NCBI RefSeq assembly: GCF_009730915.1
Contig: NC_052475.1
Coordinates: 23,931,016 to 23,995,015 of the forward strand
DNA length: 64,000 bases
Source: Dioscorea cayenensis subsp. rotundata
Lineage: Eukaryota; Streptophyta; Magnoliopsida; Dioscoreales; Dioscoreaceae
Direction of reading: 5' to 3'
Each line of letters begins with the position of its first letter. Position 1 is the stretch's first letter. The notes under the pieces were generated by a model. The model did no database searches. It was not told where the DNA came from and worked only from the letters and a program-made list of their open reading frames with translations. Below are positions 2,833 through 46,427 of this stretch, one piece after another. Both the position numbers and the translations under genes were made by a program.

Positions 2833-3739
2833 GTTGGGTTGTTGTTTCATGTGGTTGATGATGTTCTTACTTAACGTGACTAGCCATTAATTTGTCTGGG
2901 GCCATAATAAGCCAGAAGCTGAGTTCTACAATTTCTATGGCATCCATCTGTACGACCAGAAATTTAAACCAGTGTTTATGGATTTTTTTTTACATAATTT
3001 TGATTCAAGGTTTTTATTTTTAAAAAGTATTTTTATACTAATTGTTGTGTTTGATCTAAATATTATATATATTGATAAATTGATGATAAATACGTTTTTA
3101 TTTTTTACATTGTGCTTAATAGGTTTTGAACTCGAGACCTCTCAAACACAAGTAAAGTAGGAAACAACTGAATATTATATATCATTTGATTATTATGATT
3201 ATGAGTGTTTGATATATTTTTTTTTAAATAAAATGGATAAATCACAAAACTAACTCTATTTTATTAGAGCTATTAAATGTATGAGTTGCCAAATAATAAT
3301 ATATGAAACTAGAATGATTAGTAAAAAAAACAAGAAAGCAAAAAATTCATCCACTTTTAACACTCTTTTATTTTATTTTTATTTTCTTTTTTCTTTATAT
3401 ATATATACATATATCGGGCAAATGCAATTTCTATGATTAGTAGTTTCTACTTTCTAATCAATCATGTGTCATCAAAAAGTTAATTTGACAGCCTTTTGCA
3501 AAATAGGACTTGAAATTATTAGCTCAACTATTTTTAACTTATTAGAATATTTAAATATATTGATATATTAATAAATATAGAAACTGAGACTTACGGGTTT
3601 TATAATGCTTCATCAATCACATAAAGCTAATAATACACTGAGGAATATTATATATATATATATATAAACAACAAGATATGTTTAATTAATTAGAATAGCA
3701 AAACAATGGAAATTAAGTGGCATGAATTAATACAAAAAA
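2833..3739. other. AT-rich intergenic DNA with a retroposon tail
   Basis: No gene seen. It holds a tRNA B-box-like string (GAGGTCTCGAGTTCAAAA on the minus strand near 3124-3141), a short retroposon tail at 3219-3250 and TA repeats at about 3648-3665. Confidence 0.4.
3219..3250 (-). repeat. LINE/SINE 3'-tail motif
   Basis: The minus strand reads TTTTGTGATTTATCCATTTT followed by an A-rich tail. This is the same terminus as the LINE that ends near 34447, so it is probably a short, 5'-truncated retroposon insertion. Confidence 0.5.
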
Positions 3740-4450
3740 AAAAATGTTGATCATGCATGTTTCTCCCGGACCAGTAGCTTCATTCCCCTGCCTGTTTCCA
3801 ACCTCTCAAATCAGTGTACTTGCATTTGTTTTAACAGCCTTACAGAGTTTCGGAATCCATTGATCATCATCATTATCATCTTTAAGACCACCACCACCAC
3901 CACCACCACCATCTTTCTGATGAGTTACATGACACCAAATTATATATAAATCACAAGCAAAACAATTCCCATCAACAATGCAATACAATCGATCACATGC
4001 TAAGAACTAAAACACTGAAATTATATAATAACATTACACTGCAATCATTCATCTTGGTAATTAATTTCTCAACCAGTACTTGAAATGGAAAAACAAACAA
4101 TGAAAAAGAACAATAGTATTACATAGAAAAAGAAGAGGAGAAACAATGAAACACTCATAATTAGTCCATCATCTCAAGAACACCACAAAGTATTACATTA
4201 CATGAAAAAAGAACAAAACTGCAGCTAGCACTTGACAGTGTGTACAAATAGTGAAAAATGTGACATAAGAAAAACATACTGACCTTGTTGTTCTTGTTGT
4301 TGTTCTTGTTCTTGGGAGTTTGAAGAAGAAAGAACATGAAGAGAAAGAGGGAAAGAGAGAAAAAGGTGAGATTGAATGGAGAGAGAAAGAGAGAGATGAG
4401 GGGGTGGTGTTAGCTTTTGGCAGTGTGTGAGGAGGGGCAGAGCACCCCAG
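3740..4450 (-). ncRNA. Putative long non-coding RNA carrying a miR166 target-mimic site
   Basis: Inferred transcript on the minus strand; both ends are approximate. A CT-rich leader like a plant 5' UTR (about 4430-4300) runs into a good donor (AAG/GTCAGT, exon end 4284). An acceptor ending in TCAG at 3917 would give a 367-nt intron. The 3' exon contains a GGT repeat, a short acidic reading frame and then, at 3788-3766, a sequence complementary to nearly all of miR166 with a two-base central bulge. Only short open frames exist; the spliced one would encode about 50 residues with a Gly run and no family I recognise. I therefore favour a non-coding role, but a small peptide gene remains possible. 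Expression is not shown by the sequence. Confidence 0.5.
3766..3788 (-). promoter_or_regulatory. Bulged miR166-complementary site (candidate endogenous target mimic)
   Basis: On the transcript strand the site reads GGGGAATGAAGC, then UA, then CTGGTCCGG. The first block is the exact complement of miR166 positions 10-21. The second pairs with positions 1-9, with one G:U pair at position 1. The two extra bases fall between positions 9 and 10, next to the Argonaute cut site (10/11). A central bulge with otherwise full pairing is the layout of target mimics such as IPS1, which bind a miRNA without being cut. Natural HD-ZIP III targets lack the bulge and pair less well at GGGGAATG. Confidence 0.7.
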
Positions 4451-6832: not shown

Positions 6833-6978
6833 TCAAGAAACCATATACACAAAAACACTTGTATTAATCAAATGAGAATAATCAAGACTGCAATCTACAA
6901 TGTTGGAATATTGCTTCACCTCTGTACAATCAACTAAATTACTATTCCTATTCCTAAAAAAACAAGATGAATTCAATG

Positions 6979-7010
<32 letters not shown>

Positions 7011-8089
7011 ACAAGAAGTTGATCACTAATATCTCCACCAGTGCTCCTAACCAACATCCAATCCTCATCATCCCAACTCCAACCCCCACTACTTCCGGCG
7101 AGCTCCTCCACCCGCTCGCCGGCGGCGGTGCTATCACTAAACTCCATCTCCAAAACTCTCACAATCTCCAGTACATCTTCCTGTTCATCATCAACCTCAG
7201 AAACAGAGTCCCAAAACTCATGATGCAAAGTACTCATCGGAGAACTCAACCAATTAGGGTTCATCTTCTTCTCCTGAACCTCGCCGGAACTCACAAACGG
7301 ATGCTGAATGAGCTCCTCGGCGCTCCATCTCTTCCCACACTCCCTAACCAAACACTTGCTCAAAAAATCCTTAGCATCATCGGAAAGCCATGCAGGAATC
7401 TCCGGCAAGTCGGAGGAGAACGCAATCCTATTCAAAACCACCAACGGATCAGAAACCTCCTCCGGCCATGGCCGTCGTCCGGTGGCCATCTCAATCATAG
7501 TACACCCCAAAGCCCACACGTCCGCCGCCGGCCCTTGCTCCTCCCCTCTCGCCACCTCCGGCGCCATGAACATCGGCGTTCCCCGAACCAAACACCGTTT
7601 TCCCTCATCTTCATTACTCTTCTTCGCACACCCTAAGTCGCCGAGCTTCGTCCGGCCATCACCACCGATGAGGATGTTCTCCGGCTTGACGTCGCAGTGA
7701 ACAAATCCGGCAGAGTGGAGATCAACGAGCCCGGATAACATTCCAAAAACATGGTTTTTAATAGAAGTTTCATTAAAAAATCCACCTTTTTTGGTTTTGA
7801 TCTCGTCGGAGAGAGAGCCGCCGGCGGCAAACTCCATGAAAAGGTTATAATAGACCTTGCCATCTGAGATCTCAGTAGTGATATCAAACCCGGAATAGCC
7901 GATGATATTCAAGGAATCAAGGCTTGATAGAATCCTCTGTTCATGAAGCAGAGAACTTGATCCAGAGCTTGAGATTTCCGCCGACTTCACCGCCTGAACA
8001 TGGCCGGAAGACGGGAACGAAGCTAAAGAAACGGTGGAGAAGGAACCATGACCTAGTGTTCGCCCTCTGATCCATGTCTTGGAGTCCAT
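6833..8089 (-). CDS. MAPKKK17/18-like serine/threonine protein kinase
   Basis: Single-exon kinase of 418 residues from the ATG at 8089 to the TGA at 6833-6835. Family members act at the head of an ABA- and stress-responsive MAP kinase cascade. Kinase landmarks: glycine loop GHGSFSTV (13-20), lysine in VKSAE (35), HCDVKPEN catalytic loop (131-138), DLG in place of DFG (150-152), GTPMFMAPE activation segment (169-177), and DVWALGCTMIEMATGRRPWP. A cysteine sits where RD kinases have arginine. The C-terminal regulatory tail is acidic and carries a run of about 10 aspartates from an ATC microsatellite (6979-7013). The open frame extends 60 codons upstream to 8269, but that part includes a Phe run from a GAA-rich 5' UTR and the TATA box, so I chose 8089. 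An intronless gene fits this plant subgroup. Confidence 0.88.
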
Positions 8090-8158
8090 TGCGGAGAAGA
8101 AGAAGAAGAAGAAGAAGAAAAGAATGAGTTTTGAGAGGGCGTTGAGAAGGAGTTGGTG

Positions 8159-8216
8159 TTTATATAGAATTGAGAAGACTTTGGCGGGAGGTTTGACTCG
8201 TTTGGTCACACGTGTC
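8159..8216 (-). promoter_or_regulatory. TATA box and ABRE of the kinase gene
   Basis: The minus strand reads TATATAAA at 8166-8159, about 70 bp upstream of the start codon. About 40 bp further upstream lies GACACGTGT (8216-8208), a palindromic G-box/ABRE core (ACGTGT). This spacing is typical of an ABA-responsive core promoter and fits the known ABA induction of MAPKKK17/18. Confidence 0.6.
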
Positions 8217-8269
8217 AAAATAAGGAAATGGGGTTTTGGCCGCCACCTCTGAAGTCCTAAGTTATACAC

Positions 8270-10148
8270 CGAACACTAACTACTCCTTGATATTTGTATT
8301 TATCTCATTTATTTTAATGTTAATTTTAGTTTTGAGCATGAATAAAATGTGTGTGTTTTGATTGAGTGAGATTAAAGATTTGGATCTGATTAGGAGGTGG
8401 TGGATGCTTTTGCTTGAGAGGATGGAGATACGGATTTGGAAGTTGGTTAATTAATTAATTGATTAGTTGATTATGTGAAGAATAAGATGAAGAAGATGGG
8501 ATTTATATATGTTGGAATAGAATGCAAGTCAAGTGAAGCATAGTGTTTGCTTCAAAGCAGATGACTTCTTTTTTGTTTAGGTGAGGTGGAAGGTGGAACT
8601 TTATATTAGATAGATAGCTTCTAATACCGAAAGGATAATAATAAAAGGTCATGAGTTTCTTACTTTTATAAATCATAATTTATAAGTATAGAGACTCTTA
8701 AATTTTTTTTTTCTTTTTTTTTTTAAACAATTTAACAGCCTGTGGGAATTGTTAAAGCATAAATAAAAGGAGAAAAAGGACATGAAAGAAAGGAAGTATA
8801 TTGGAATTTAGTGTTGGAATAGTGACCTTTTTGATGCTTATAGATATCAAAGAAGATAAAGTTCTCATGTTAGTGAGGAAAGAATTGGTTGTACTCTTTT
8901 ACTTTGCATTGTCTTGCTTACAAGCCAATCCTCTTCTCACTCTATTTTATTTTATTTTTATTTTGCTCTCTCTCTTTCTCTAAAAGGAAAGATTGCTTGG
9001 AAGGTCATACTTAACAAATCACAATTACTTCCTTCAAAGTCACGTTTGTTCATGATTAAATAGAGAAGACTTGGAATCTATACAAAACTATTTAAAAAGA
9101 AGCAATACATGCAAAGACTTCTTTTTTATGATATTTCAATAGAAAGTATATGCACAGTATATTGATGAGAATAAACTTCAATGAATGGGGTCATATGTCT
9201 TTTATTTCGGTGTGAAATATCCGAGCCATCAGAAGTTGGAAGTTGACTCCACCTGTCACTACATTTCTAATTTTATTCATGCTTCTATATAGGATTTTTT
9301 TTAATTGATGAATAAATGTGTATATAATTAAGGGCGTACGCATAAGAGAAAATAATGACCAGCTCATACATCTTTATCAGTCCAATATATGAAATAAATG
9401 ATACCATTACATTTGATGTCTTTCAAACTCAAATAAATATTGAGCATCTCATAAATCAAGTTTTTCATAATGAATCAGTGTTGTTGGACCAGAGATCCTG
9501 TTGACTTTTATATAGAATTTTGAAATAAATTTTTGGGATTATTATTATGATTTCATGTGGTCGTCTAGGAGGACTTTTTCCATTAGGATGCTCCTCATCA
9601 ACCTTGACCTCACACGTGTATGTGTGTACATAGACAAAAAGAACGAGTTGGATTCCCATTCCTCAAACATTTTTAAATCTTTTGGGTTTTGACCTCTTCT
9701 TTTTCGCATTTACATTTGTGAAAAAAGAAGCATGTTGACCAACAAACAGTTAACATGTCAACCTTATCTTTTCATTTTCTAATTACATCTAGTATGTATT
9801 GACCATGACTTGGAATTATCAAACCATGTGTATCAGATTCAATGAATTTGGTGCTCTCTTTCTTCCAGACCAGAATATTTCAATACTCATGTCAAAAAAT
9901 CCTGGCAAGAATTTAATGATCCTAATACCAAAGTACAAACAGAAAATAATACAAGAAGACTTACTCCATTGGAATTATCTAACAAGCCACTATTATTTAC
10001 CTGTAAAGGATAACCAATTAAGTCATATGATGTTTTGCAAGATATGCCACAGTAAAATTTGAGAATCAAAAAGTTACATCTATTTGAAACTGAAGAAGGA
10101 TGATCTGAACAGGTAGAAGATTGGAGGTGTGCATTTCGGAATCGAGTA
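8270..10148. other. Kinase promoter, spacer and 3' UTR of the BAP31 gene
   Basis: No further gene seen. The left part is promoter territory of the kinase gene, the middle is AT-rich spacer, and the part nearest 10149 is probably the 3' UTR of the BAP31-like gene. Short frames here lack motifs. Confidence 0.45.
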
Positions 10149-12476
10149 TTAACTGTTCTTCTTGTTATCACTATGTGACAACATAAGATCGATTGACTGC
10201 AACTGGTTCCGAAGGTTCTGGTTTTCTTCCAGCATCCGGTCATATTCGAGAAGGAAACTCTCAGACTGTCTTTTAAGAGCAAAGGCATTGGCTTCGGCCG
10301 CCTTTGCTTCTTTCAATCTTTCCTCTGAGTCCATTTCTAACTGTTTGATTTTTGCAGTTAAATCTGATACTTCTTTCTCCTTGGCTTTGATATCCTCTGA
10401 ACTTCCATTCTTTGCTTCTTCTAATGCTCGGTTTTGTTTCATCGCAGCCTCCATAGTCTTTCTTGATGTCCGGAGTTCTCTGATGTAATGGTGTAATCGG
10501 TCAATTATAAGAACAAGGAAAAGAGAATATCCTGCAAAACATGGGTGAAACTTGCATCATGTTCATAATGAGTATTTATGCCATCAGTTCCAAGGGTGAG
10601 ATAGTAAAATAAAAGAACAAGAAATAAATCAAAGCCACAGATAATTCAGATAATACCTGCAAATAGAAATAATACTCTAGCAGTTCAAGCCGGCATCTTG
10701 TCATGCCATTGTGCACTGAACCACTAGCTATATGGAAATCATACATCAAATATCTATCCTAGGTAAAAATAATGTATCACAAAAACTATAGGATAATTAC
10801 AATGAAGTTACAGAAGATATGCAATTTGAATCAGCAGGGTAACCTGATATGCAACATTTTAATGCATAAGATAGTTACAATGACTATAATGGAACTGTAA
10901 AAAAGCTCACTTTGAAATATCTTAAAAATTTGACAGAATCATCTGATGCTAACTTTCCTCTGTTGCATTTACCAACTTGACAATGCACACACCCCTTTGA
11001 GTCCTAACGAAAAACTGTTGTGTTTGATTAGAACAGAGATTTTCATATTAACAATGGAGGCAGGGGAAGAGCTCACACATGAAGATACTACTCATGCCAC
11101 ATGGTGGTGGCTTGGCTAAAAAAAAGAAATACCAAACCACAAACTAAGTCAAGATCATTGGAGAGTCTGGATAAAGCAAGTCTTTACACTAAACAGAAAA
11201 TAAACCTCAAGGTTCAGCCCCTTAGTTCAGTTGATTTAATGGTGTGATCCTAACGAGCTACAATTTCTTTTGGCTCAAGTACCATAGGAAGTGTTATCAT
11301 CTTATTTTGTGCTGTTAATCCAGCACTGGTCGGACCTTCTACTTACTTTTCAACTTGGACATGGCCCTTGATATTCAGTTCCACCACAAATGATCCCATG
11401 GCCCTTGGTACCCAACCTGATTCCTTTTGGCTTTTGGAAAAGTAGCTTGGTGCTATCAGATATGGTCATGTCTTACCAAGCACTAAACCTTTCCACTAGG
11501 AGAGATTCTCAATTTTAAAGGTTCAGATAAACCATCAATGTAGGTATCACCATACAATTAACATGTTTGAGTAAACGCATCCATCTCAACTTCTACTTGG
11601 AAGATCATGACATTTATCATTAAGCAAGAGTAAATTCTCACTCAATTGATCACCAACTCCACTATTTTATATAGTTTGAAATGTGAATTTTTCCAATGGA
11701 GTCTCGTGTTCAAGAGAGATCTTTTAACAGTCCAATCCCTACCAAAATTGACTTATCAAGCAACTAAACATAGATTCCACATAACAATTTCCAAAATAAT
11801 AAATATACCGAAAAATTTAAACTAAAGAATCATTCATACACAAACATCTTATAAAGAGAATGATGCATAAATATAAATAACAATTCATGATTGTGAACAC
11901 ACTGCAAAGCAAAATTATCCAATCTAACAACAAAGCACCAAATTGATCAAAATCAACTGCACAGACAACAAATTTTGCGAATGAGCATGAATGAACATTA
12001 ATAGCCAAGAAAATCATAATCATAAACACTTATAAATTCAACAGGTTAGAATTTCATTTTGCTAGTAAATGGAAAAACCAATTAATTCATGGTAGATAAC
12101 AATAAAGATTGCAAATTTTATCAAAATTCAGAGATTTTAATCAATCCAAGCATGGTAAGAGCAGAATTAAGGCGAGAAAGAGAGATTGATTACCCATTAG
12201 AGAGGCCTCGAGGAGGTGGCGGCTCATAAGGACTTGATCGGTGGGGGTGAGGGAGCCGATCTCGGTAGATCGGTTCTGGATCTTGGCCATGCTATAGACG
12301 CTGGATGCAAACACGATGACGACGGTACCAGCCACGGTCTTCACCATGACGGGGCCTCGTCCCCGCTTGAGCCGGTCCAAGGCCATGATCGCAAGCTTCC
12401 GGAGCGGCGTCTTGAAGAGCAGCACCAAAACCAGCGCCACCTCAGCCGCCAGTACCGTGAACAAGAGCTGAATCAT
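10149..12476 (-). CDS. BAP31: BAP31-like endoplasmic-reticulum membrane protein
   Basis: Two coding exons: 12476-12194 (283 nt) and 10531-10149 (383 nt), joined in phase 1 (ATGG/GATATTC) to give 221 residues. BAP31 proteins are ER membrane chaperone or sorting factors for other membrane proteins. The N-terminus has three hydrophobic segments: IQLLFTVLAAEVALVLVLLF, VKTVAGTVVIVFASSVYSM and LLEASLMG joined to YSLFLVLIIDRLHHYIREL. The second half is a coiled coil (KTMEAAMKQNRALEEAKN... to LLEYDRMLEENQNLRNQL). The protein ends in KKNS, a dilysine KKXX signal for return to the ER. The splice junction restores the family block LMGYSLFLVLIIDRLHHYI, which supports it strongly. The intron is long (1,662 nt) and holds no coding sequence I can support. 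Confidence 0.9.
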
Positions 12477-12971
12477 CCTGGGACTCTCGGAAAAGATGGA
12501 AGAGATGGAAAGGAGAAGCGGAGAAGAGGGATCTCGTAGTGGAGCACAAGGTGTTCGATGATTTGCCGAGAAGAAGAGTTGGTATGGAGGAAATGGAGAT
12601 AAATTTCAAGGGAGCGCGAGTTGTGATCTCGAGACACGGCTCCGATGGCCGGAATAGCCAACACGTTCCACTGCCCTTTTGTTTTGCTTCTTTTTTTTTA
12701 TTATTATTATTTGTTAATTATTTAAAACTTATTTAGGCAATAATGGCTTAATTTTGTTTTGTTATAATTTTTTTAAAAAAAATGTTAAATGATGCATGAT
12801 TTTTTTTTATGAATTTTTTTAAACAATATTGAATAAACCTAAATAAATAAAAATAGATTAAATTGGAGAACTTGGTTAGCACAGTCAACATTGGGGTTAT
12901 GCTAATTTTCTGGTGCCCTTTTTGTCAATGCCAATAAAAAAAGACTTTGCCTGATCCTCTCCTTGATGATC

Positions 12972-17308: not shown

Positions 17309-19106
17309 ATGGGGGATTCTAGCTTGTCATTGTATGAGACCTTGACATATGCTGTTGGAGTAGCTGGTAATCTCTTTTCTCTATCTCTTATCACTGGTTT
17401 TTAGAAATTTTTGCTGGAAGTGAGCACACTAGCTGGTTTTTCATACTTCATGCTAAGTAAAGTTACTGATTTCTGATGCAAAAGAGGGATCTTTATTGAT
17501 CTGGGAGTGTCTATGAGCACCATGATGGTTGAAATGGTATTGTTGTTTGTGTATGCAGGCAGCCTGTTTGATTTTGTGATCTTTTCATTGGACCAGAATT
17601 ATGCGCTGGTTTTTAAATTTTAGCTGGAATTAAGTACATTAAGTGGTTTTTCATACTTCATACTAACTAGAATTGTTTTTCTGATGTTAAACATTGATAT
17701 CTAGTGATTTTTGAGTGCCCTATACATGTTGTGATGGTTGTGTGGTCTTGCTTTCTCTGTATGTACGGGAGACCTATTTGATTATTAGCTGTTTTTCTGA
17801 CCATTGTGTGTAAAACATTTTGATTTGTACATTAGATTCTTTGGTTCTTGCTGGATTTAATCATTTTGGTTCATACCATATATAGTTACAAGAGCACTAT
17901 GATGGTAATTAGCTACTGTTTTCTTTGAGTATGAAGATAAACTGTTTGATTTGTCCTCTGTATTTTTGTATGTTTTAAAACATTCTGATTTGTGCATTAG
18001 TTTCTTGAATCCTTGTTGAAACTAACCACATCAGCTTCTTCATGGTTGTACAAGAAGGATCCACGCTGATTTTATAATATGATGTGGCTTTTTCTTTTTG
18101 TGCAGGTAATTTGTTTGCGTTTGTGCTCTTTGTCTCGCCATTGTGCGTAAAACATTCCCATATCCCTCATGTTTGTTTCTCTTTCACTGCAATGTAGCTT
18201 GTGACTCTTGTGTCTGCTTTCTCTTAGGCCAACTTTTTCGAAGAATTTGTCAGAACAAATCAACTGAGCAATTTTCAGGGCTGCCGTATGTGTATTCTCT
18301 CTTGAATTGCCTCATTGTGTTATGGTATGGACTTCCTTGGGTATCACAAGGTGTTATCTTGGTTGTGACAGTTAATTCAGTCGGGGCTTTATTTCACTTA
18401 TCCTATTCGACAACCTTCATTGTGTTTTCAGAGAATTCAAAGAGGGTGTGCACATGTATAATTCAAGTTCTTTGTTTTGGATAACTCATATCATCATTGT
18501 CTTATTTCTTGTGATTTTGTTTTCAGTTCAAGATGGTTGGGTTGCTGTTAGCAGTTTTCTGCATCTTTGCACTGATCATTTATGTCAGTCTTGAGTTTTT
18601 CCGTGGACCTGAAAGGCAGAACTTTGTTGGATATCTGAGTATTGCTTCTCTGATCTCCATGTGTGCTTCCCCGTTATTCATAATTGTAAGTGCCTAGTTT
18701 AATCTCTGTTCGGCTTTCAATACAACAAGTGACAACCATTTGATTTTAACATAACATAAATTACCTTTCTACATCAGAAATTGGTTATTCGGACGAAAAG
18801 TGTGGAGTTCATGCCTTTTTATTTATCACTTGCAACCTTCTTGATGAGCATTTCATTCTTTACATATGGGATGCTCCTACACGACTTCTTCATATATGTA
18901 AGTGCTTTCATCCCTGTATTCTTGCTTCAACTTGGGAAACTGGATGACTCATTGTCATGAAATTGATTAAAGCTTCATCTGAATGTGAATTTTAGTTGCC
19001 AAATGGCGTTGGAGCAGTGCTCGGTCTGGTGCAATTGTTGCTATATGCCTACTACAGCCGGAGATCAAGTGACATTTCTAGACTTCCACTGCTAGTTTCC
19101 AATTGA
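17309..19106 (+). CDS. SWEET2: SWEET2-like sugar transporter with an apparent +1 shift in exon 3
   Basis: Six exons: 17309-17366, 18106-18142, 18228-18445, 18527-18685, 18778-18897 and 18996-19106. SWEETs are seven-helix sugar uniporters; the SWEET2 type sits in the vacuole membrane. Exon 2 has the canonical 37 nt (GNLFAFVLFVSP). Later exons read ICQNKSTEQFSGLPYVYSLL, WYGLPWVS, FKMVGLLLAVF, FVGYLSIASLISM, KLVIRTKSVEFMPFYLSLAT and PNGVGAVLGLVQLLLYAYYS, ending LPLLVSN. With canonical splicing exon 3 opens CCA ACT then five T instead of the four needed for PTFRRI, which shifts the frame; all downstream exons agree with each other. Use of a GC donor at exon 2 (TTGT/GCGTAA) would keep the frame and give SPLCQLFRRI, but that donor is weak. 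So this is either a recent pseudogene, an unusual splice or an assembly error in a homopolymer. Confidence 0.85.
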
Positions 19107-25305: not shown

Positions 25306-26132
25306 ATGGCAGGTCCTGATCTCCCCGGAGAAAAACCAGCCACCACCAACTGCAACGACGACCATGAACATCAACCGGACTGCACTGATGACACTAAATC
25401 ATCAATGTTAGTACTTCCTATGATACCCACACCTGTTCGCCGTCCTAGAGGCCGGCCAGCAGGGTCCAAGAACAAGCCTAAGCCGCCGATAATCATCACT
25501 CGCGACAGCCCCAACGTCCTACGTGCTCATGCCATGGAGGTAAAACTATTGATAATAAATTAACTCAATCAACATTGATCAACACTTACGTACTAACAAT
25601 GCTTAACACATAGGTGAGTCCTGGCTGTGACATCACTGACTGCATTGCCGGGTTTGCGAGAAGACGTCAACGTGGAGTGTGTGTTCTCCGGGGAAGTGGA
25701 TGCGTGATGAACGTGACACTGAGACAGCCAGGGCCGGCTCCGGGAGCCACCATCACACTGCATGGGCGTTTTGAGATCTTATCATTGCTAGGATCCTTTT
25801 TTCCTCCACCGGCACCGACGTCTGGCACAGGGTTGACGGTTTTCTTGGGTGGTTCTCAGGGGCAGGTGTTTGGTGGCAGCGTAGTAGGACCACTGGTTGC
25901 GGCGAGCCCAACGGTGGTCATGGCGGCATCTTTCATGACTACTGGATTTGATCGTCTTCCATTGGAGGAGCATGAGAGTACTATTGCTGGAAGTGGCATG
26001 CATCATCATCATCATCATCATCACCACCGCATTGAGATGCCTAACTTGTATGGAGTTGGTGTGCCTTCTGCCATGGCTCCTGAGCTGTATGCATGGGCTC
26101 ATGGTGGTCAAGTGACTGAGTTGAAGAAGTGA
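25306..26132 (+). CDS. AHL: AT-hook motif nuclear-localised (AHL) protein, unit 1
   Basis: Two exons: 25306-25539 and 25614-26132, phase 0 (GAG/GTAAAA ... ATAG/GTGAGT), giving 250 residues. AHL proteins bind AT-rich DNA through the AT-hook and multimerise through the PPC/DUF296 domain to control growth genes. The AT-hook reads [17 protein letters not shown] (residues 45-61). The PPC domain starts [18 protein letters not shown], continues [20 protein letters not shown] and VCVLRGSG, then [26 protein letters not shown] and TVVMAASF. A nine-histidine run from a CAT repeat precedes the C-terminus. The hook type is that of clade A proteins, which are intronless in Arabidopsis, so the intron at HAMEV/SPG is noteworthy. 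This copy reads intact and is the likely parent type of the AHL fragments at 39838 and 46428. Confidence 0.9.
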
Positions 26133-28150: not shown

Positions 28151-29067
28151 GGATGTTCCATTGGTGATTGATTCATCCAAGGTTCCGTTGATTAAGTTGG
28201 CGGCTAATCTCGGGACATTTGTAGACCCTTTGGTCTCGCATAATGGGGTGGGCTCGGATTTGAGCCTGGGTAAGTTGGGTTCGGTACACCCTGATAACCA
28301 GTTTGATCCGGTCTTGGACTGTGAGGTGGGCTGTTTTGGGCTTAGGGCAATCGGGCCGAGGGCTGAGCCCATAGTCAAGATGGATGATGTTGTGTGTCTG
28401 GGGCCCGATCCTGTTGAACCCAAGAAGGAGAATTTGGCTCTTTCAACTGATATTTATCTCAACAAGAATTCTCTGCCGCCCTTGAAGCCTCCTATTGGTT
28501 TCAAATGGCAATTTTTGGGGGGTACCTGGGCTATGATTCCAGATAGTGTTCCATTATCTGCTGACGGAGACAATCTTTCAGAAGGGGGCAGGAGTCCCGA
28601 CAGTCCAGGTGAACATTCCTTGGTCAAGGATTCTCAGGAGATTGATGTGGAATAGGTTGATTCGTTCTCGGAGTTCGAAAGGAACCTCAGGGTTCTGCTG
28701 CCAAGTTTACATTCGGATCAAGAGGGGGGACCTATAGAAAATTTGCAAGGCACCAGGAAGGGCAAGAGGCATAAGAAACCTTCTTCTAGGTTCAATGAGG
28801 AGGCGGGTTATGTGGCCAAGCTACCACTTCGACTAAAAAGAAGGGAACAGGCGGGGAGAGCTCGAAGGTACACATGTTAAACCCCTGCTAATTTCCGATT
28901 GGTCTGATGCACAAATTATTCAGTATTGCAATGCTTGTGGTATTGATTTCTCTGGTAATGTGAATGATTGTATCATGCATATTCGTTCCTTAGAAAATAC
29001 CCGTGCCACCCTTTCTAAGGACGTTGTAGCGGCCTCTTCTGAGGTCAGGAAGAACTAATGTTTTTTC

Positions 29068-29814
29068 ATGAATATCATTACTTGGAATGTTGGGGGCCTT
29101 GGGAAACAGTCTAAGCATTTTCTAGTCAAGGACTTTCTTAATCTGCATTATGTTGATGTATGCTATCTTCAAGAGTCCAAATTAGATTGTGTTATCCAAG
29201 CGTTATGGTGGGAGATAGGCGGGAGTCTCTTGGATCATTTTGCTTTAGTTCCTGCTCTGGGAACAGCTAGGGGTATTATTGTGGGATGGAATAGTTCGAT
29301 CATGGACGGTAAAGTGCTAAAGGTGGGGGATCACAGCTTGACGATTGAGTTTTTTTCTAAGCAGTATCTAATGATTTGGATTTGCATCGCGGTGTATGGT
29401 CCAGTGGTGAGGGCCCGTAAAAGTGCTTTTTGGGAGGAATTGCGGGCGAGTGTGGGACCGCCCCCAGATGTCCCTTTAATTGTTTGTGGGGATTTTAATG
29501 CAATTTTTGCATTTAATGATAAAGTCTCTGGTACGCCTAATGTAGATGACATTTGTAGTGCAAATTCCTTCATGGTGGATCAGGGTTTCTGGGAACCGTC
29601 CTCATTGGGGAGAAGGTTCACTTGGACTAATGGTCAAGCTGTCCCGATTTCAGTAAAATTGGATCGTTTCCTTGTGAACAATGCTTGGGTTGTGTGGTTC
29701 CCTAAGCTTGTTCAGAAGAGTCTTCCTAGATTGAGATCGGATCATGTTCCAATTGGTCTTGAGGGGAGGGGTGCGAGCACTAGTCTACCCCGCGTCCATT
29801 TAGATTTGAATTGA
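29068..29814 (+). pseudogene. LINE ORF2, AP-endonuclease domain
   Basis: Reads MNIITWNVGGLGKQ at its start (the WN metal site), then CYLQESKLD (catalytic Glu), YGPVVRARKSAFWEEL, VCGDFNAI (catalytic Asp/Asn), SLGRRFTWTNGQ, LDRFLVN and LRSDHVPIGL (Ser-Asp-His motif). All the usual endonuclease motifs are present over 248 residues. The frame ends before the reverse transcriptase, with which it would normally be fused in ORF2. Confidence 0.85.
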
Positions 29815-29848
29815 TTTGGACCACGTCCGAGGAGTTCCATAATCTTGT

Positions 29849-31532
29849 TTGTCATGGTGGTCGGCTTTTTCTCCTTCCGGATGTGGGGCCTTCATCATTA
29901 GTAAAAAGCTTTCCTTGCTTAGGGGAAAATTGAGGGAGTGTGCAAAATTTAGTTTTGGTTCGATTAAGCTTCGTAAGCTGGCCTTGTTGAATGAGCTGGA
30001 TGAAGTGGACATTATCAAAGAATCTAAGGGATTGTCTCCCTCTGAGTTGAATCAGGAACACACTATCCTTGAGAACCTTGCTGTAATCAGAAATCAGGAG
30101 GAAATCTATTGGAAGCATCGTTCTCGATTGCAATGGCTTAAGGAGGGTGATGAAAACTCAAAGTTCTTTCATGCGGTGGCTAATGGGTCGTAAGAACATG
30201 AATTTTATTCCCTCCTTACAGGTCGATGGTTCCCTTTTGGATAAGCCTCGGGATTTAGGCAAGGCTTTTGCAGCTCACTTTAATAAGATTTTTGGTAGCA
30301 AGAGATCGACTAGTTTTCAGGTGGATCTTAGGAGATTATTTGCCTTCAAACCCCCTGTGGACCTCTCTCATCTTGAGAGCTCGTTTACAATGGAAAATCT
30401 GAAATTGGCAGTGTTTGAATTAGGGCGTGATAAGGCGTCGGGTCCGGATGGTTTTCCCCTGTTCTTTTTTAGAGAATTCTGGGACTTGACCAAGGATGAT
30501 TTGTGGAAACTGTGTGAGGACTTCTTTGATGGGAAGGCTAATTTTGAAAGAATTAACTGGGCAAGTTTAACCCTCTTTCCTAAGGTGGACACTCCGGAGA
30601 CTCTAGTGGATTTCCGTCCTATCAGCCTAATCAATTCAACCCTGAAAATTATTTCTAAAATGCTGGCCTCCCGTCTCGCTAAAGTCCTGAATCGGTTAGT
30701 TGAAAGTGAGCAATCCGCTTTCATGAAGGGTAGATGTATCCTTGATAATATTTCCACTGCGGAGGAATTGATTTTTAGTATGCACAAACGCCGTGCTGCT
30801 GGGCACATCCTAAAGGTCAACTTCGCCAAAGCGTTTGATACTGTGGATTGGGAGTTTCTGTGGGACTTGCTTCTGACAAGGGGGTTTGACAGTAGATGGG
30901 TAGGGTGGATCTAATATTTACTTACCTCGTCGAAGGCTTCGATTCTTATCAATGGATCCCCCAATGGTTACATTAGGTGCCAAAGGGGTCTGCGTCAAGG
31001 TGACCCGCTGTCCCCTTTGCTCTTTACCCTGGTGATGGATGTGCTCAACTCCATGTTTGTCCATGCCCTTAGCACCAAAGTGCTTGTGGGGGGTTCCTAG
31101 CTCTTGGAGAATTTGGTAGTAGGTGTAATCTTCATTATGCTGATGATCTGCTTGTTCTGACCATGGGGAGTCTTGAAGACCTTAGGGTGATTAAGCTGAT
31201 GCTTTATTTTTTTGAGGGCTTAACTGGGTTGGAGACTAATTTTGATAAACCATGTCTGTTCTAGAGCAATTTGGGTGATCTTTCGGATAATGCTGCAGCT
31301 CGTACTCTTAATTGTGAGGTGAGGATGCTTCCCGTCACTTACCCAGGTATCCCCATTTTTGGGCGTAGACCGTGCAAGCTGGACTGGGAAGGGCTTATTC
31401 TTAAGATGATAAGACGTCTGTCGACTTGGAAGGCAAGCTACCTCTCTTTGGGGGGTAGACTTTCGCTAGTCAACTCTATGCTTATGGCTCTACCTACCTA
31501 TTGGATGTCGTTGTTCAGATTGCCGTGTTGGG
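29849..31532 (+). pseudogene. LINE ORF2, reverse-transcriptase domain (left of the hAT)
   Basis: Visible in pieces: DKASGPDGFPLFFFREFW, NWASLTLFPKVDTPETLVDF, RPISLINSTLKIISKMLASR, SEQSAFMKGRCILDNI, then KVNFAKAFDTVDWEFLW (30147-30914), in which the first catalytic Asp of motif A is Asn. Further on come RQGDPLSPLLFTLVMDV (about 30990), YADDLLVLTMG (about 31139) and SLGGRLSLVNSMLMALPTYW (to about 31505). In-frame stops and shifts separate these blocks. The domain is cut at 31532 by the hAT element. Confidence 0.85.
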
Positions 31533-35869: not shown

Positions 35870-37900
35870 ATACTATGTCATTGGTGACGGTAGCCTCCCA
35901 TCGGTATGACTATGACATTAGGCATCATGGCTTCAAAGGAATAGGAAAGGGACTTATCAATAAAGTTATTTGCAAAACTAATATTTATCAGGGGTCCATC
36001 AGTAAAATTCAAGTACAAAATTCAACTGGCATGGCAGTGCTCCTGCATGTATATTCATAATTCATAAATAAAACTTTGGCAAAGCGAAGAGCTTGCAAAG
36101 CTCGGTTGCATGATCTTATCTCCATTGCCATAGGACCTTCGTCTTCCAAAGAACCTATCTCTTTCCACAAGGTTTTCCTCTTAGCCCACCCCCCTTTCTC
36201 AGATTTTTTTTTTCTTCATTTGATTTTGATGTCGATATGTCTAATTTATGAAAGAATTGGTTGTATGTTGCCTTGATGCATCAAGGGACTATAGTTTTTG
36301 CTTGGTTTACTACACTTGCTTTCTAAGATTAAGCGACATGTTTTTGTGAACGTGCACAAACCACCCCATCAAAAGGTAGTACTGGTATTTCATTTATTCT
36401 CCAATTGATTGGAGAGTTCTATCTGGGCTTGTCTACGTTCCTCAATATATATATATATATATATATATGCACAAGATCCTGTTTTGGTTAGTGATTGTTT
36501 GACTAAATAAAAAAAAACCAGTGTTCTGAATTTTGTTACAAGATGTGTTTCTCTGTTTTCTTTGTTTCCATTTAGGATGTTTCTGCAAAACAGTGTCTTT
36601 TTGAATCTTTGAAGGCTTTGGTATAGACTTCATGATGGATGTGCTAGCTAGGCATGGATAGGAAAATGGAGATGTAAAAAGATGTCATTTTGGTGATCAG
36701 TTTAAATTTAATTCATAGCCAACAGTGCAGGGATCCATGGTTGAAGATGTGCGCCAATTAAAATTTTTGAGTTAGATTGATACACTCATCACTATTTCTT
36801 TTCTTTAGAAAATGGAGAAGTGTTTCTCTGTTTTACTCTTTTATTCTCAAAATAGGATTGTGGAGAATATGAATGGTAGAATGTGTTCCCAAAAGCTCAA
36901 AATTGGGATTAGATGTGTGATTGCGATGCCTTAAGAGGGCTTTAGCTTTTCTAAGTTTGTATGTTCATTATAAGAGAAGCAGAGGATGTAATTCAGATTT
37001 GTTGGTAGGGATTAATGTTTGTTTATTCTTCTTCTTTCTAGCTGTTTGCTTGTACTTGTCTTCTTATCCTTCTTCTGGTTTTCATCCTAGAGTTCTGAGC
37101 AATTCCCTTCAAAACCAAGTTGTTATGGGTTCAATTGATCACTTTGGTTGAGCTTGGATTGATTAGTTTTGGAGATTGAGATCTATAGGACTTGTAGTTG
37201 TGAAAAAGATAATTCCTGATCCAAAAAATGCCATGTTAAAGTCATGGTTCATCTTAAAAAAATAGTCATGGTTGGCTGATGGAGATGGAGACGGAGATGG
37301 TGAGAAGTAGGAGAAGAGAAGTAGATGGTTAAGGCAAAGAAGAGAATGTATTGGACTAGAACAGATTATATCTGTAGTTTTTAGGCTAATTTTGGAGATA
37401 TTTGTTTTCTAGGTCAACTTTGCAATATTTATTTCAATATCAAATTGTGTTAGGCATTTCTATTTCATTTCAAAGCAACAAATGAAATAAAGTAAAATTC
37501 TCTGTGAATTCTATCTCACTATTAGAAATTTATATTTGGTTAGGCTCTGTTTTATTTACCATTACATATTACTTTTCAATAGGAAGTAGAAACATATTTG
37601 TTTTTTAGAATAATGAATGGACTTCTTTCAAATTTGAGTTTAGCTCCCAATGCATTTCTTGTTCTGCTGTTGTAAGTTGTATAAAAATAGGATGTCATGT
37701 TCTAAAATTGTTCAAGGCTAAGTATTCATGATTAATCATTCAACATCCTATACTTCAAATGATGCAAATATGGGTAATGGTTTTGTTACAAGGTTTCTTG
37801 AAGGTTTATCTTTTATGTGTGTTGCTATTATGTTATCAAGGTGATAAATTGTCTTTTAACTGAAACTCTTAAATACTATAAAATCCAGCGTTCAGTTCAC
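35870..37900 (+). repeat. GHR 5' flank, copy A
   Basis: About 2 kb highly similar to the flanks of copies B (about 40930-42895) and C (54835-58205, interrupted). Landmarks are GGCAAAGCGAAGAGCTTGCA, GTGCTAGCTAGGCATGGATA, GCTTGGATTGATTAGTTTTG and TCTGTAGTTTTTAGGCTAA. It probably contains the promoter and any non-coding first exon; its open frames are not conserved as proteins. Confidence 0.85.
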
Positions 37901-39605
37901 ATGGCTCAATCAGCGTTGGAAGAGACTTCCGAGACTGGTGCATTTAATCGCACACCATCAACTTTTCGGAGTTTAATTTCAAGGGATAAGACATCTCCTT
38001 TTCCTGCAGAATCTGGTAGGTACCATCTATTTGTATCATATGCATGCCCGTGGGCATCCAGGTGTTTGGCATACTTAAAGCTCAAAGGGCTGGACAATGT
38101 AATCAGTTACACAGTGAGTCTCCTAAATGACTTTTGAAAGTTTTGAATTACTTCTCCTTTTTTAAACATATTCTGATGGTTATCTAACCTGTTTATAGGT
38201 TGTAAAACCAAAATGGGAAAGGATCAACGAAACTGATGAGCATTATGGATGGGTTTTTCCTGCTTTTAGCATGGAAGAACCAGGAGCCAAACCTGATAAG
38301 CTAAATGGAGTTACAAGTATCAGAGCACTTTATGAGTTTGCAAGCCCTAATTATACTGGAAAATATACTGTTCCAGTAAGTGTCAAAAGCATCCTATTAT
38401 TCTGTCGCATGTCGTTTCAGTTTGTTTGGACATATTTGTGATACTTATTAATCAAATGCAATGGCAGGTTCTTTGGGATAAAAAGCTTAAAACGATTGTC
38501 AACAATGAAAGCTCGGAAATAACACGCATGATGAACACTGAGTTTAATGATATGGCAGAGATTGCTGATTTGGACTTATACCCTTCTCATTTGCAGCCTC
38601 TTATTGATGAAGTCAATGAATGGGTATATGATGGGATTAACAACGGTGTTTACAGGTGTGGATTTGCTAGTAAACAAGAGCCTTACGATGAGGTTGTGTT
38701 TGTTGCTATTGCAGTTCATCTTTAATAAACTATAAATTTACTCGTGCTATATGCTTTCATCTCATTTGCTAAAATAGGCAGTCACAAAATTATATGAAGC
38801 CTTGGACAAGTGTGAAGAGATACTTAGCAAGCAGCGGTACATTTGTGGGAATGTGTTGACTGAAGCTGATGTGCGCTTGTTTGTCACTCTTATAAGATTT
38901 GATGAGGTACGGTTCATTTCTTAAGTGAAGAATATATTCTTTTTGGTCCTGATGACTTTAATCACGTTTTGTAATGGTATTTTGAGCCCTTGTAACAATA
39001 TGTAGTTTTTGTAATTGGAAGCAAAAACTTATTCAAATCTAAAAGTAGATGCAATTTCTGGTATTCAAATTAGAAGTGCCTTACTAATTGTAGTTTTACA
39101 TTAAGCAAGTATATCCTAGAAATTAGTATTCAAATCAAATGTATCATATTTGATGCACTGCTTTTCCTTTGTTTAATTGCTGACAAAATAAAGCACAGCT
39201 GAAGTCAGAATTTGATAATAATTTTTCAGTCAATTTCCAGAATTGGCATTCAGAATTACTCCTCTTAACTATTTTGCTTTGACAGAACTCAATTTGCTGA
39301 GCCATTTTCCCTGCATAATTTTGTTAACAATGCATTAGTTGCTAACTCACCTCATTCTTTCATATTTCATGCAGGTTTATGTTGTTCATTTCAAATGCAA
39401 CAAGAAGCTGATACGTGAGTATCCAAATCTGTTCAACTACACCAAAGACATATACCAAACCAATGGCATGAGCAGCACCGTTAACATGGAACACATTAAG
39501 AAGGGCTACGGAAGCCACCCATCCATCAATCCATTAGGCATTGTTCCAATTGGTCCCAACATTGATTTCTCTGCTGCTCATGACAGAGCTCGCTTTGCCC
39601 CTTAA
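37901..39605 (+). CDS. Glutathionyl-hydroquinone reductase (ECM4/Xi-class GST), copy A
   Basis: Five exons: 37901-38113, 38199-38375, 38468-38692, 38778-38906 and 39375-39605, all phase 0, giving 324 residues. The enzyme uses glutathione to reduce S-glutathionyl-hydroquinones, releasing the hydroquinone and GSSG. The catalytic cysteine is in YACPWASR (Cys49). Family blocks: [105 protein letters not shown] and [20 protein letters not shown]. Compared with copy C and the family block HYYGSHPS, this copy has lost one codon there (GYGSHPS). No plastid transit peptide is evident, so a cytosolic enzyme is likely. The reading frame is whole. Confidence 0.92.
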
Positions 39606-40929: not shown

Positions 40930-42895
40930 AAATTAACTTAGTCATTGGTGACAGTAACCTCCCATCGGTATGACTCTGACATTAGTGATCATGGTTCCTA
41001 AGGAAAGGGACTTATCAATAAAGTTATTTGCAAAATTGGTATTTGTCAGGGGCCCATCAATAAAATTCCAAGTACAAAATTCAGACGGCATGACGCTGCT
41101 TCCTGTATGCAAATTCATAATTCATAAATAAAGCTTTGGCAAAGCGAAGAGCTTGCAAAGCTCGGTTGCATGATCAAATCGCCATCATTCTCCTTTCTCC
41201 ATTGCCATAGGACCTTTGTCTTCCAAAGATCCTTCTATTTCCACAAGGTTTCCTCTTATTCCCCCTTTCTCAGGATTTTATTTTATTTTTTTTTTTTTTT
41301 GATGCCGATATATCTAATTTATGAAAGAATTGTTTGTATGTTGGCTTGATGCATCAAGGAACTATAGTTTTTGCTTGGTTTACTACACTTGCTTTTTAAG
41401 ATTAAGCGACATGTTTTTGTGAACATGCACAAGCCACACCATCAACAGGAGTACTGGTATTTCATTTATTCTCCAATTGGTTGGAGAGTTCTATCTGGGC
41501 TTGTCTACATTTCTCATTATATATATGCACAAGATCCACTTTTGGTTAGTGATTGGTTTGGCATAAAAAAAAAACCAGTGTTCTGAATTTTGTTACAAGA
41601 TGTATTTCTCTGTTTCCTTTTAGGATGTTTCCGCAAAGCTGTGTCTTTGTTAATCTTTGAAGGCTTTGGTACTAGATTCCATTATGGAGGTACTAGCTAG
41701 GCATGGATAGGAAAATGGAGATGTAAAAAGATGTCATTTTGGTGATCAGTTTAAATTTAATTCATAGCCAACAGTGCAGGGATCCATGGTTGAGGATGTG
41801 CGCCAATTAAAATTTTTGAGTTAGATTGATACACTCATCACTATTTCTTTTCTTTTGAAAATGGAGAAGTGTTTCTCTGTTTTACCCTTTTATTCTCAAA
41901 ATAGGATTGTGAAGAATATGAATGGCAGAATGTGTTCCCAAAAGCTCAAAATTGGGATTAGATGTGTGATTGCGATGGTTTAAGTGGGCTTTAGCTTTTC
42001 TAAGTTTGTATGTTCATTATAAGAGAATCAGAGGATGTAATTCAGATTTGTTGTTAGGGATTAATGTTTACTTGTCTTCTTATCCTTCTTCTGGTTTTCA
42101 TCCTAGAGTTCTGAGCAATTGCCTTCAAAACCAAGTTGTTATGGGCTCAATTGATCACTTTGGTTGAGCTTGGATTGATTAGTTTTGGAGATTGAGATCT
42201 ATAGGACTTGTAGTTGTGAAAAAGATAATTCCTGATCCAAAAAATGTCATGTTAAAGTCATGGTTCATCTTTAAAAAATAGTCATGGTTGGCTGATGGAG
42301 ATGGAGACGGAGATGGTGAGAAGTAGGAGAAGAGAAGTAAAAGGTTGAGTTGAAGAAGAGAATGTATTGGACTAGAATAGATTATATCTGTAGTTTTTAG
42401 GCTAACCTTGGATATATTTGTTTTCTAGGTCAACTTTGCAATATTTATTTCAATATCAGATTGTGTTAGGCATTTCAAAGAAACTAATGAAATAAAGAAA
42501 AATTCTGTGAATGCTATCTCACTATTAGAAATTTATATTTGGTTGGGCTCTGTTTTATCTACCATGACATATTACTTTTCAATAGGAACATATTCGTTTT
42601 TTAGAATAATGAAAGGGCTTCTTTCAAATTTGGGTGTAGCTCCCAATGCATTTCTTGTTCTGCTGTTGTAAGTCGTATAAAAATAGGATGTCGTGTTCTA
42701 AAATTGTTCAAGGCGAAGTATTCATGATTAATCATTCAACATGCTATACTTCAAATGATGCAAATATGGGTAATGGTTTTGTTACAATGTTTCTTGAAGC
42801 TTTTTCTTTTATGTGTGTTGCTATTATGTAATCAAGGTGATAAATTGTTTTTAACTGAAACTCTTAAATACTATAAAATCCAGCGTTCAGTTCAC
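40930..42895 (+). repeat. GHR 5' flank, copy B
   Basis: Second copy of the about 2 kb GHR upstream region, colinear with 35870-37900 with small indels (for example it lacks TTATTCTTCTTCTTTCTAGC between GTTT and CTTGTCTTC). Confidence 0.85.
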
Positions 42896-44602
42896 ATGGC
42901 TCAATCAGCATTGGAAGAGACTTCCGAGTCTGGTTCATTCAAACGCACACCATCAACTTTTCGGAGTTTAATTTCAAAGGATAGGACATCTCCTTTTCCT
43001 GCAGAATCTGGTAGGTATCATCTATATGTATCATACGCATGCCCGTGGGCATCCAGGTGTTTGGCATACTTAAAGCTCAAAGGGCTGGACAATGTAATCA
43101 GTTACACAGTGAGTCTCCTAACAGACTTTCGAACGTTTTGAATTACTTCTCCTTTTTTAAACATATTCTCATGATTATCCAATCTGTTTATAGGCTGTAA
43201 AACCAAAATGGGGAAGGACCAAGGAAACTGATGAGCATTATGGATGGGTTTTTCCTGCTTCTAGCATGGAAGAACCAGGAGCCGAACCTGATAAGCTAAA
43301 TGGAGTTACAAGTATCAGAGCACTTTATGAGTTTGCAAGCCCTAATTATTCTGGAAAATATACTGTTCCAGTAAGTGTCAAAAGCATCCTATTATTCTAT
43401 CGCTTGTCCTTTCAGTTTGTTTGGACATATTTGAGACCTTTTAATCAAATGCAATGGCAGGTTCTGTGGGATAAAAAGCTTAAAACAATTGTCAACAATG
43501 AAAGCTCGGATATAATACGCATGATGAATACCGAGTTTAATGATATGGCAGAGAATGCTGATTTGGATTTATACCCTACTCATTTGCAGCCTCTTATTGA
43601 TGAGGTCAATGAATGGGTATATGATTGGATTAACAATGGTGTTTACAGGTGTGGATTCACTAAGAAACAAGAGCCTTACGATGAGGTCGTGTTTGTTGCT
43701 ATTGCTGTTCATCTTTAATAAACTATAAATTTTCTCATGCTATAATTATTTGGTTGCTTTCATCTCATCGGTTAAAACAGGCAGTCACAAAGTTATTTGA
43801 AGCCCTTGACAAGTGTGAAGAGATACTTAGCAAGCAGCGGTACATTTGTGGGAATGTGTTGACTGAAGCTGATGTGCGCTTGTTCGTCACTCTCATAAGG
43901 TTTGATGAGGTAATCATTTCTTAAGTGAAGAATATATTCTTTTTGGTCCTGATGACTTTAATCACGTTTTGTAATGGTATTTTGATCCCTTGTAACAATA
44001 TTTAGTTTTTGTAACTGGAAGCAAAAACTTATTCAAATCTAAAAGCTGATGCAATTTCTAGCATTCAAATTAGAAGAGCCTTATTAATTGTAGTTTTACA
44101 TTAAGCAAGTATATCCTTGAAATTAGTATTCAAATCAAATGTAGCTTATTTGATGCTCTGCTTTTTCTTTGTTTAATTGCCGACAATAAAGCACGGCCGA
44201 AGTCAAAATTTGATAATAACCTTCAGGCAATTTCCGGAATTGGCATTCAAAATTAATCCTCTTGACTATTTTGCTTTGATAGAACTCAATGTACTTAGCC
44301 AGTTTCCCTGCATAATTTTGTTAACAATGCTTTAGTTGCTAACTCACCGCATTCTTTCATATTTCATGCAGGTTTATTTTGTTCATTTCAAGTGCAACAA
44401 GAAGCTGATACAAGAGTATCCAAATCTGTTCAACTACACCAAAGACATATACCAAATCAATGGTATGAGCAGCACTGTTAACAAGGAACACATTAAGAAG
44501 AGCTACTACAGCCAGCTATTCATCAATCCATTCGGCATTGTTCCAATTGGTCCCAACATTGATTTCTCTGCTGCTCATGACAGAGCTCGCTTTGGCCCTT
44601 AA
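42896..44602 (+). CDS. Glutathionyl-hydroquinone reductase (ECM4/Xi-class GST), copy B
   Basis: Five exons: 42896-43108, 43194-43370, 43461-43685, 43781-43909 and 44372-44602, phase 0 throughout, giving 324 residues. Same catalytic YACPWASR (Cys49) and same exon plan as copies A and C. It is the most diverged copy at conserved places: [17 protein letters not shown] has Trp where the others have Gly, and the C-terminal block reads [16 protein letters not shown] instead of [17 protein letters not shown]. The tail ends ARFGP. These changes keep the frame open but replace residues that are nearly invariant in the family as I know it, so relaxed selection or changed substrate handling is possible. 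Confidence 0.9.
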
Positions 44603-45831: not shown

Positions 45832-46427
45832 ATGGCAAGAAGAGCTGAAGCACTCTTTTCTTTCCCAGTTGTCTTTGTTGCGCTGATGTTGCTGGCTTCC
45901 ACTTTGGGTAAAACATATCAACCTCACTCCTTCCTCTTGAGCATGCTCTTTGTTTATTGGAGTACTTTTTTAGTCACTGTTACTCAATGATTTCCTTCTG
46001 GCTTAGTTTATCAGCTTCACATTTGAACTCAATGCTCCTAATTTTGAATTGGAAACTGTCAGCTCTACATATTAGTTTACATTTTCTCTGTTGTCACTTG
46101 TCCTGGTTCAAGCTTGAGCTTCATTTGTGCTCATTTGACACAACTACAATGAATTTGATTTTGCTTTCTTCTCATTCCTGATGATTGTGATTATTCCACA
46201 GGAGGGATTATAAAGTTGGCGCAGGGTCAAGTAAGTTTTAAGCCCCTTATTATTCCTGAAAATTTTGAAGCATTAAGAAACATCAAAATTCCTCATACAT
46301 GAAGTATGTCCATGTTCTTTTATTTTTGCAGAAAATTAACATGATGTGTTGCAAAAGCTTCACTAGATGAAGCAACTTTGTTGCTAAGTATCAACTATGC
46401 CTGCTCTCAACTGTTCTGCTCTCAATG
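45832..46427 (+). pseudogene. X8-domain (CBM43) secreted protein gene, truncated, unit 2
   Basis: Exon 1 (45832-45907) encodes a signal peptide MARRAEALFSFPVVFVALML and exon 2 (46202-46230) GGIIKLAQGQ, both closely matching the unit 3 gene at 60437. Exon 3 begins near 46332 but is disturbed at once by an extra stretch (AAAATTAACATGATGTGTTG instead of AAAACATGGTGTGTTG). After TATGCCTGCTCTCA it loses homology and runs into AHL-derived DNA at about 46428. The six cysteines that define X8 are therefore not encoded. Not functional as an X8 protein. Confidence 0.85.

Follow-up and report, generated by a model that had tools for sequence, protein, structure and literature searches.

We asked what function should be attributed to a short sequence on the minus strand of a 64,000-nucleotide stretch of Dioscorea cayenensis subsp. 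rotundata DNA (the window), which is complementary to miR166 apart from two extra bases near its center. The miRNA sets the dosage of the HD-ZIP III genes in leaf polarity and in meristems. The best explanation, to which we give a probability of about 75%, is that this locus is a minus-strand, probably spliced and largely non-coding RNA gene (∼4440 to 3600) that acts as a non-cleavable mimic of a miR166 target, and that it is one member of a duplicate pair. The sequence at the heart of this proposal is the following.

3766..3788, minus strand: predicted miR166 mimic site, GGGGAATGAAGC-TA-CTGGTCCGG, with 21/21 miRNA positions paired

With TCGGACCAGGCTTCATTCCCC as the miR166 reference, positions 1-9 and 10-21 of the miRNA are all paired, the only departure from Watson-Crick geometry being a G:U at position 1, and the unpaired UA forms a 2-nt bulge between positions 9 and 10. 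For this pairing the RNAduplex energy is -38.1 kcal/mol, compared with -45.1 kcal/mol for a perfect unbulged site, and miRNA positions 2-8 are perfectly paired both here and in the duplicate copy described below. Both the bulged pairing and the strand, as put forward in an earlier note on this DNA, are therefore borne out by the sequence and by the computed duplex. Measured against the usual criteria for endogenous target mimics (eTMs), the bulge lies within the range of positions 9-12 and there is a single mismatch or G:U outside it, where up to three are allowed, but the bulge has 2 nt where the prediction rule of Wu et al. (2013) has 3 nt. The nearest neighbors, as judged from open frames and a sequence motif, are a kinase frame ∼3 kb from the site and a fragment resembling geranylgeranyl diphosphate synthase (GGPPS) at ∼0.9 kb, both further away than the >200 nt of the eTM criterion. 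No MIR166 hairpin was found at the site on either strand, and no Rfam family matched anywhere in the window at the gathering score. A DNA search with a 961-bp stretch found no second copy, the other three matches being pieces of 52-63 bases that do not cover the site, and an origin of the site in a repeat or transposon was discarded on this result. Scans for bacterial-type promoters and for repeats returned nothing useful.

Searches of the genome (584 Mb) indicate how rare such a sequence is. The pattern GAATGAAGCN{1,6}CTGGTCCG has one match in the whole genome, the window site, and its reversed control has none. When GGGGAATGAAGCNNCTGGTCCGR was searched with up to three mismatches, 20 matches were obtained against five for the reversed control; one of the 20 is exact (again the window site), none has one mismatch, two have two and 17 have three. 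By a hand estimate that assumes 20 fixed letters plus R, both strands and an even base composition, ∼5e-4 exact matches are expected by chance per genome, and with a sole exact match in 584 Mb the earlier judgment that chance occurrence is very low holds. When the window was scanned with 24 conserved plant miRNAs and their reversed controls, with bulges of 1-4 nt allowed, the miR166 site had a penalty of 0.5 and the next independent site, itself a reversed control, one of 2.5. Searches for a 3-nt bulge with up to three mismatches gave six matches against four on the control when the bulge was placed at 9/10; with the bulge at 10/11 there were six matches, each with three mismatches, and six on the control. 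One match with a 3-nt bulge at 9/10 and two mismatches (L051) was considered as a further family member and rejected, because the 1.2 kb inspected by eye has a different anatomy. Of the two two-mismatch matches to GGGGAATGAAGCNNCTGGTCCGR, one (L015) was likewise rejected, its flanks being unlike; five of the three-mismatch matches (L018, L021, L027, L028 and L030) each lie one base from it, and we therefore take it to belong to a repeat family.

The remaining two-mismatch match (L014) is on C17, at C17:3454360-3454382, and reads GTGGAATGAAGC-CA-TTGGTCCGG. In the C17 locus the site is preceded, in this order, by a CT-rich leader, the donor GAAGAAG|GTCAGTAAG and what may be an acceptor, TTTGATAG|GTGTC; the order in the window is identical. 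Two stretches of the window are of interest in this comparison.

3764..3789, minus strand: 26-nt block common to the window and C17, 23/26 identical
4413..4426, minus strand: possible shared upstream element ACACTGCCAAAAGC (ACASTGCCAAAAGC), 13/14 with C17:3453833-3453846; E 0.72, not significant alone

With low-complexity sequence excluded, no ungapped 26-mer matches better between the two 1.1-kb loci than the mimic site itself, at 23/26, and once the site is masked the best is 18/26; among 60 Markov-shuffled pairs the best 26-mer reached 17 in three, 18 in 26, 19 in 25 and 20 in six. Taken alone, the figure of 23/26 is biased because L014 was found through a search for the site. A global alignment of the loci fails to bring the two sites together, and in local alignment the site ranks first (E 1e-4), followed by a TA-repeat stretch with its 3' side (E 0.005). 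The donor AAG|GTCAGTA is present in both copies (AAGGTCAGTA), with an E of 0.72 that is again not significant alone. Hence, in this one within-genome duplicate pair of one genome, the site is conserved and the flanks are almost unalignable.

Within the block the copies differ at three places, namely at the bulge's first base and at the bases facing miRNA positions 9 and 20. Each copy retains a central bulge of 2 nt. In the C17 copy the base at position 9 either makes a G:U, which keeps the bulge at 9/10, or moves the bulge to 8/9, just outside the eTM range of 9-12, and position 20 is unpaired; mismatches and G:U together come to three in the 9/10 register and to two in the 8/9 register, the eTM limit being three. 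The best computed duplex (-32.8 kcal/mol) is the one with the bulge at 8/9, and because of this and of the unpaired position 20 the C17 copy may be the weaker of the two.

The genomic place of the C17 match is evidence that does not depend on the search. Open frames of 120 kb of C17 were compared with those of the window plus 60 kb beside it, and three collinear genes, SWEET-like, BAP31-like and kinase, were found with their relative strands kept.

6836..8275, minus strand: protein kinase open frame (Pkinase E 3.4e-51), anchor C17:3449585-3451207 (+), 46-50% identity, dS 1.9
9890..12605, minus strand: BAP31-like gene (exons), anchor C17:3434812-3437793 (+), with weak Bap31-family matches below the Pfam cut-offs
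18110..19103, plus strand: SWEET-like sugar transporter (MtN3_slv) exons, anchor C17:3400635-3399733 (-)

The kinase, which we take to be MAPKKK-like, precedes the site on the same strand in both places, with the site 3.05 kb downstream of its frame in the window and 3.15 kb downstream on C17, so that L014 falls at the matching spot and on the matching strand of an ohnologous block. By a hand estimate, the probability is ∼2e-4 that at least one of the 19 other matches would land <5 kb from that spot on the right strand. Two exons of the BAP31-like gene are 68-78% identical, with dS of 1.4 and 2.5. The dS values, which cover the kinase and BAP31-like frames, are rough because stop-to-stop frames include some untranslated sequence; at 1.4-2.5 they nevertheless point to an old duplication, probably a whole-genome duplication. 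Beyond the site, on the side away from these genes, the compared stretches yielded no collinear gene. The synteny count omits transposon-like matches and also a protein match that lies 41 kb upstream, the latter because its dS of 0.12 does not fit. The expectation that the site should be present at a related locus is thus confirmed in its within-genome version, the ohnologous C17 locus keeping the bulged site in place and orientation while the flanks have diverged. That a bulged site has been kept in so ancient a duplicate suggests that it matters to the plant.

The RNA that would carry the site is predicted as follows, with splice signals judged by eye and exon ends that are our own prediction.

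4284..4440, minus strand: predicted exon 1, the CT-rich leader, from sequence; its 5' end is approximate and the C17 leader is alike
3917..4283, minus strand: predicted GT-AG intron, AAG|GTCAGTATG ... CATCAG|AAAG
3600..3916, minus strand: predicted exon 2, containing the mimic site; its 3' end is arbitrary
3806..4337, minus strand: short 54-aa ORF of the predicted spliced RNA, from the ATG at 4337 to the stop at 3808-3806, split by the predicted intron

The donor reads AACAACAAG|GTCAGTATG, with the intron running from 4283, and the acceptor CATCAG|AAAG, with the intron ending at 3917. A CT-rich leader and a GT-AG intron had been proposed before, and both look plausible by eye, with a like leader and donor in the C17 copy. 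It had also been said that there is no convincing protein, and this stands only in part: Pfam gives no match and the ORFs of the two copies are unlike, but the predicted spliced RNA does contain the 54-aa ORF, with 17 nt from the end of its stop codon down to the site, and the predicted spliced RNA of C17 contains one of 45 aa, for which this distance is 13 nt. In the unspliced RNAs the window ORF is of 33 aa and ends 22 nt short of the site, and the C17 ORF is of 20 aa and ends 13 nt short of it. The placement of the ORFs was noticed post hoc and depends on the predicted exon ends. We treat both genes as non-coding on their sequence, despite these short ORFs.

Four other readings of the site have to be weighed against a mimic. 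One is that the RNA is itself a target of miR166, being sliced despite the bulge, repressed in translation or used as a start for phased siRNAs. The strength of the pairing (-38.1 kcal/mol) and the perfect match over positions 10-21 favor such a role, but the 2-nt bulge adjoins the scissile bond, and decoys with bulges of 1-4 nt are the best inhibitors of miRNAs among those described in the available text of PMC3121747. The bulge is moreover present in both copies, and because a functional target is not expected to keep a bulge twice we regard this role as unlikely. Quite unlikely, in our view, is a gene for a short peptide with a miR166 site that is incidental, or regulatory, in its 3' UTR. 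An ORF of the same length or longer that ends ≤25 nt upstream of the site arises in 59/2000 Markov shuffles for the window and in 45/2000 for C17, which speaks for a peptide; against it, the 54-aa and 45-aa peptides show no likeness to each other (297/300 shuffles score as high), neither matches Pfam at E 0.01 and the window peptide is of low complexity. A site in a 3' UTR could in any case act as a mimic.

A match by chance, without function, gains some plausibility from the 10,410 bulged sites that were predicted for 144 conserved soybean miRNAs under rules allowing three mismatches or G:U, as given in the part of PMC4274897 available. The present match, however, is near-exact, at ∼5e-4 expected per genome as estimated above, and is kept at an ohnologous locus whose neighboring genes have dS over 1.3, so that we consider chance very improbable. 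Finally, the sequence on the plus strand is that of miR166 with two nucleotides inserted, as would be expected of a decayed MIR166 gene whose mature sequence had gained two bases. However, at most 13-14/23 bases pair with either flank, compared with 15-19/21 at the MIR166-like loci of this genome, the plus-strand fold has a z-score of 0.41, Rfam gives no match and the C17 copy pairs over only 8-10/23, which makes this origin extremely improbable.

We therefore return to the target mimic. In the mechanism that we propose, the predicted minus-strand RNA would present one miR166 site in its last exon, with which Argonaute-loaded miR166 would pair over its whole length; the 2-nt bulge beside the scissile position (miRNA nt 10/11) would block slicing while binding persists, and the RNA would hold or destabilize miR166, so that HD-ZIP III mRNAs would rise in the cells that express it. 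An old block or genome duplication would have copied the locus, after which the bulged sites were kept and the rest drifted. On the evidence of published decoys, of ath-eTM166-1 and of lncRNA39896, the most likely role would be a local relief of HD-ZIP III genes from miR166.

What is reported of decoys bears on this mechanism in several ways. Decoys with 1-4 nt inserted at 10-11 gave the most effective miRNA inactivation, also from non-coding or UTR positions, according to the available text of PMC3121747. The bulges of the window and C17 sites are at 9/10 (8/9 in the best C17 duplex), and this difference from the 10-11 of those decoys counts against the mimic reading. The same source describes lower efficiency for a decoy beside a stop codon than for a decoy placed after a 75-bp spacer, and the short ORFs that stop 17 nt (window) and 13 nt (C17) before the present sites count against their action as decoys when set beside this stop-codon effect. 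A variant in which the sponge is gated by translation, ribosomes at the stop 13-17 nt upstream displacing miR166-Argonaute, seems to us very unlikely; if it were true, miR166 would be caught only when the RNA is poorly translated, and the switch would have been kept since the duplication. Splicing alone would not be the gate, because the unspliced RNAs also have ORFs before the site.

The bulge length needs to be seen against the rules used for prediction. The eTM rule of Wu et al. (2013), as quoted in PMC4274897, is a three-nucleotide bulge, and another mimic rule, in the available part of PMC3441763, is 3-5 bulged bases. We take the 3-nt bulge as a convention of prediction and not as something that the mechanism requires, since insertions of 1-4 nt worked best in the decoys and the accessible text of PMC11891480 lists a 2-nt case. 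That case, pear MSTRG.10113.1, is like the window site in its 2-nt bulge at 9/10, but it concerns miR482d, is itself a prediction and apparently is not the mimic tested in that paper. The 2-nt bulge of the present pair would be missed by the 3-nt and 3-5-nt rules alike, and similar mimics may have been missed for the same reason.

Mimics of miR166 are a known class, as the earlier note had said, and are reported for Arabidopsis, rice and tomato. Overexpression of ath-eTM166-1 is reported, in the portions of PMC4683531 and PMC8005961 available, to raise miR166 targets and alter leaf shape. Like the window RNA, ath-eTM166-1 and osa-eTM166-2 are described as intergenic or non-coding RNAs with a bulged miR166 site; compared by description only, they differ in the 3-nt bulge of the Wu rule, against 2 nt here. 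In tomato, mutation of the miRNA site of lncRNA39896 led to more targeting of two HD-ZIP III mRNAs by miR166b, as excerpted from PMC10226578. Further miR166 mimics are described or predicted in tomato (slylnc0195 and the same lncRNA39896) and citrus (csi-eTM166) (PMC4683531, PMC10226578, PMC8215657) and predicted in maize (eTMs of miR166j/k/n-3p; PMC6162444). By their descriptions these tomato, citrus and maize mimics differ from the window RNA in belonging to other species, and the available portions of the sources mention no duplicate pair. With rice (PMC8005961) and the maize predictions (PMC6162444), miR166 mimics are known, to the extent that these sources are accessible, in monocots. A lncRNA study of grape found no bulged mimics, according to its available text (PMC6488645). 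Sequestration of miR166 through AGO10 is known from the accessible part of PMC9032736, and a tissue-specific decoy, if the present one is real, would add to it.

The IPS1/At4 family resembles the window pair in having a short conserved bulged site in non-coding RNAs, as described in the part of PMC3441763 seen. It differs in its miRNA (miR399), in a 3-nt bulge opposite nt 10-11 and in its role in phosphate regulation. STTM165/166 is an engineered construct with two bulged sites and a spacer. Together with artificial decoys, it resembles the window site in using a bulged site for binding without slicing, the decoy rules being those in the available text of PMC3121747. In soybean and maize, mimic sites are described as conserved and their flanks as mostly unconserved (PMC4274897 and PMC4608266, in the portions available), a pattern that the window and C17 copies fit. 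Although thousands of plant mimics have been predicted, we judge the evidence for their evolutionary preservation to be thin beyond the miR399 family; with a bulged site kept while its surroundings drifted, function becomes testable by comparison alone. In the literature covered, with Wu et al. (2013) outside it, the site sequence was not found and we recognized no description of the locus or of a duplicated miR166 mimic.

Both partners that the proposed mechanism would involve are represented in the genome. The 19-nt core of miR166 has seven exact places, and at all seven the mature miR166 pairs upstream (on its 5' side) over 15-19/21 bases. Its 3' end is CCCC at 4/7, the form used as the reference, and CCTC at 3/7. 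Two folds were examined; L001 gives a clean hairpin, L002 does not, and because of the latter "MIR166-like" is the safer word for these loci. The presence of HD-ZIP III genes is shown by the MEKHLA domain, which was found at four places in seven pieces, one of them with an internal stop. A search for an unbroken HD-ZIP III target site gave eight matches, namely the seven MIR166-like places and a near-match on C13, and none of the eight is near the four MEKHLA places. In HD-ZIP III genes the miR166 target sites span an exon junction. The C13 sequence (G000:C13:6780647-6780665) differs from the miR166 complement by a single change (GGAACGAAGCCTGGTCCGA). Of another miRNA, the monocot-specific miR528, the genome has three exact sequences, which suggest a monocot if that lineage limit is correct.

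Several other features of the window were seen in passing. At ∼2770-2830 it reads HESMRYSLLAGGKRVRRY, perhaps part of a gene fragment, a motif that we presume to resemble the beginning of a geranylgeranyl diphosphate synthase. One gene occurs in three similar copies, all in the same orientation, at 37802-39602, 42728-44599 and 58080-59917; their peptides recall, in our reading, a glutathionyl-hydroquinone reductase, and one ORF per copy gave no Pfam match at E 0.001. An AT-hook-like gene at 25306-26129 has apparent partial copies at 46388-46681 and 53766-54125, among the repeated gene copies, and a PCC domain was found in both of the sequences searched (25306-26129 and 53766-54125). Finally, a LINE-like element with endonuclease and reverse transcriptase domains occupies 29059-30911, and a fragment of a retroelement polymerase with an SH3-like domain lies at 47977-48423.
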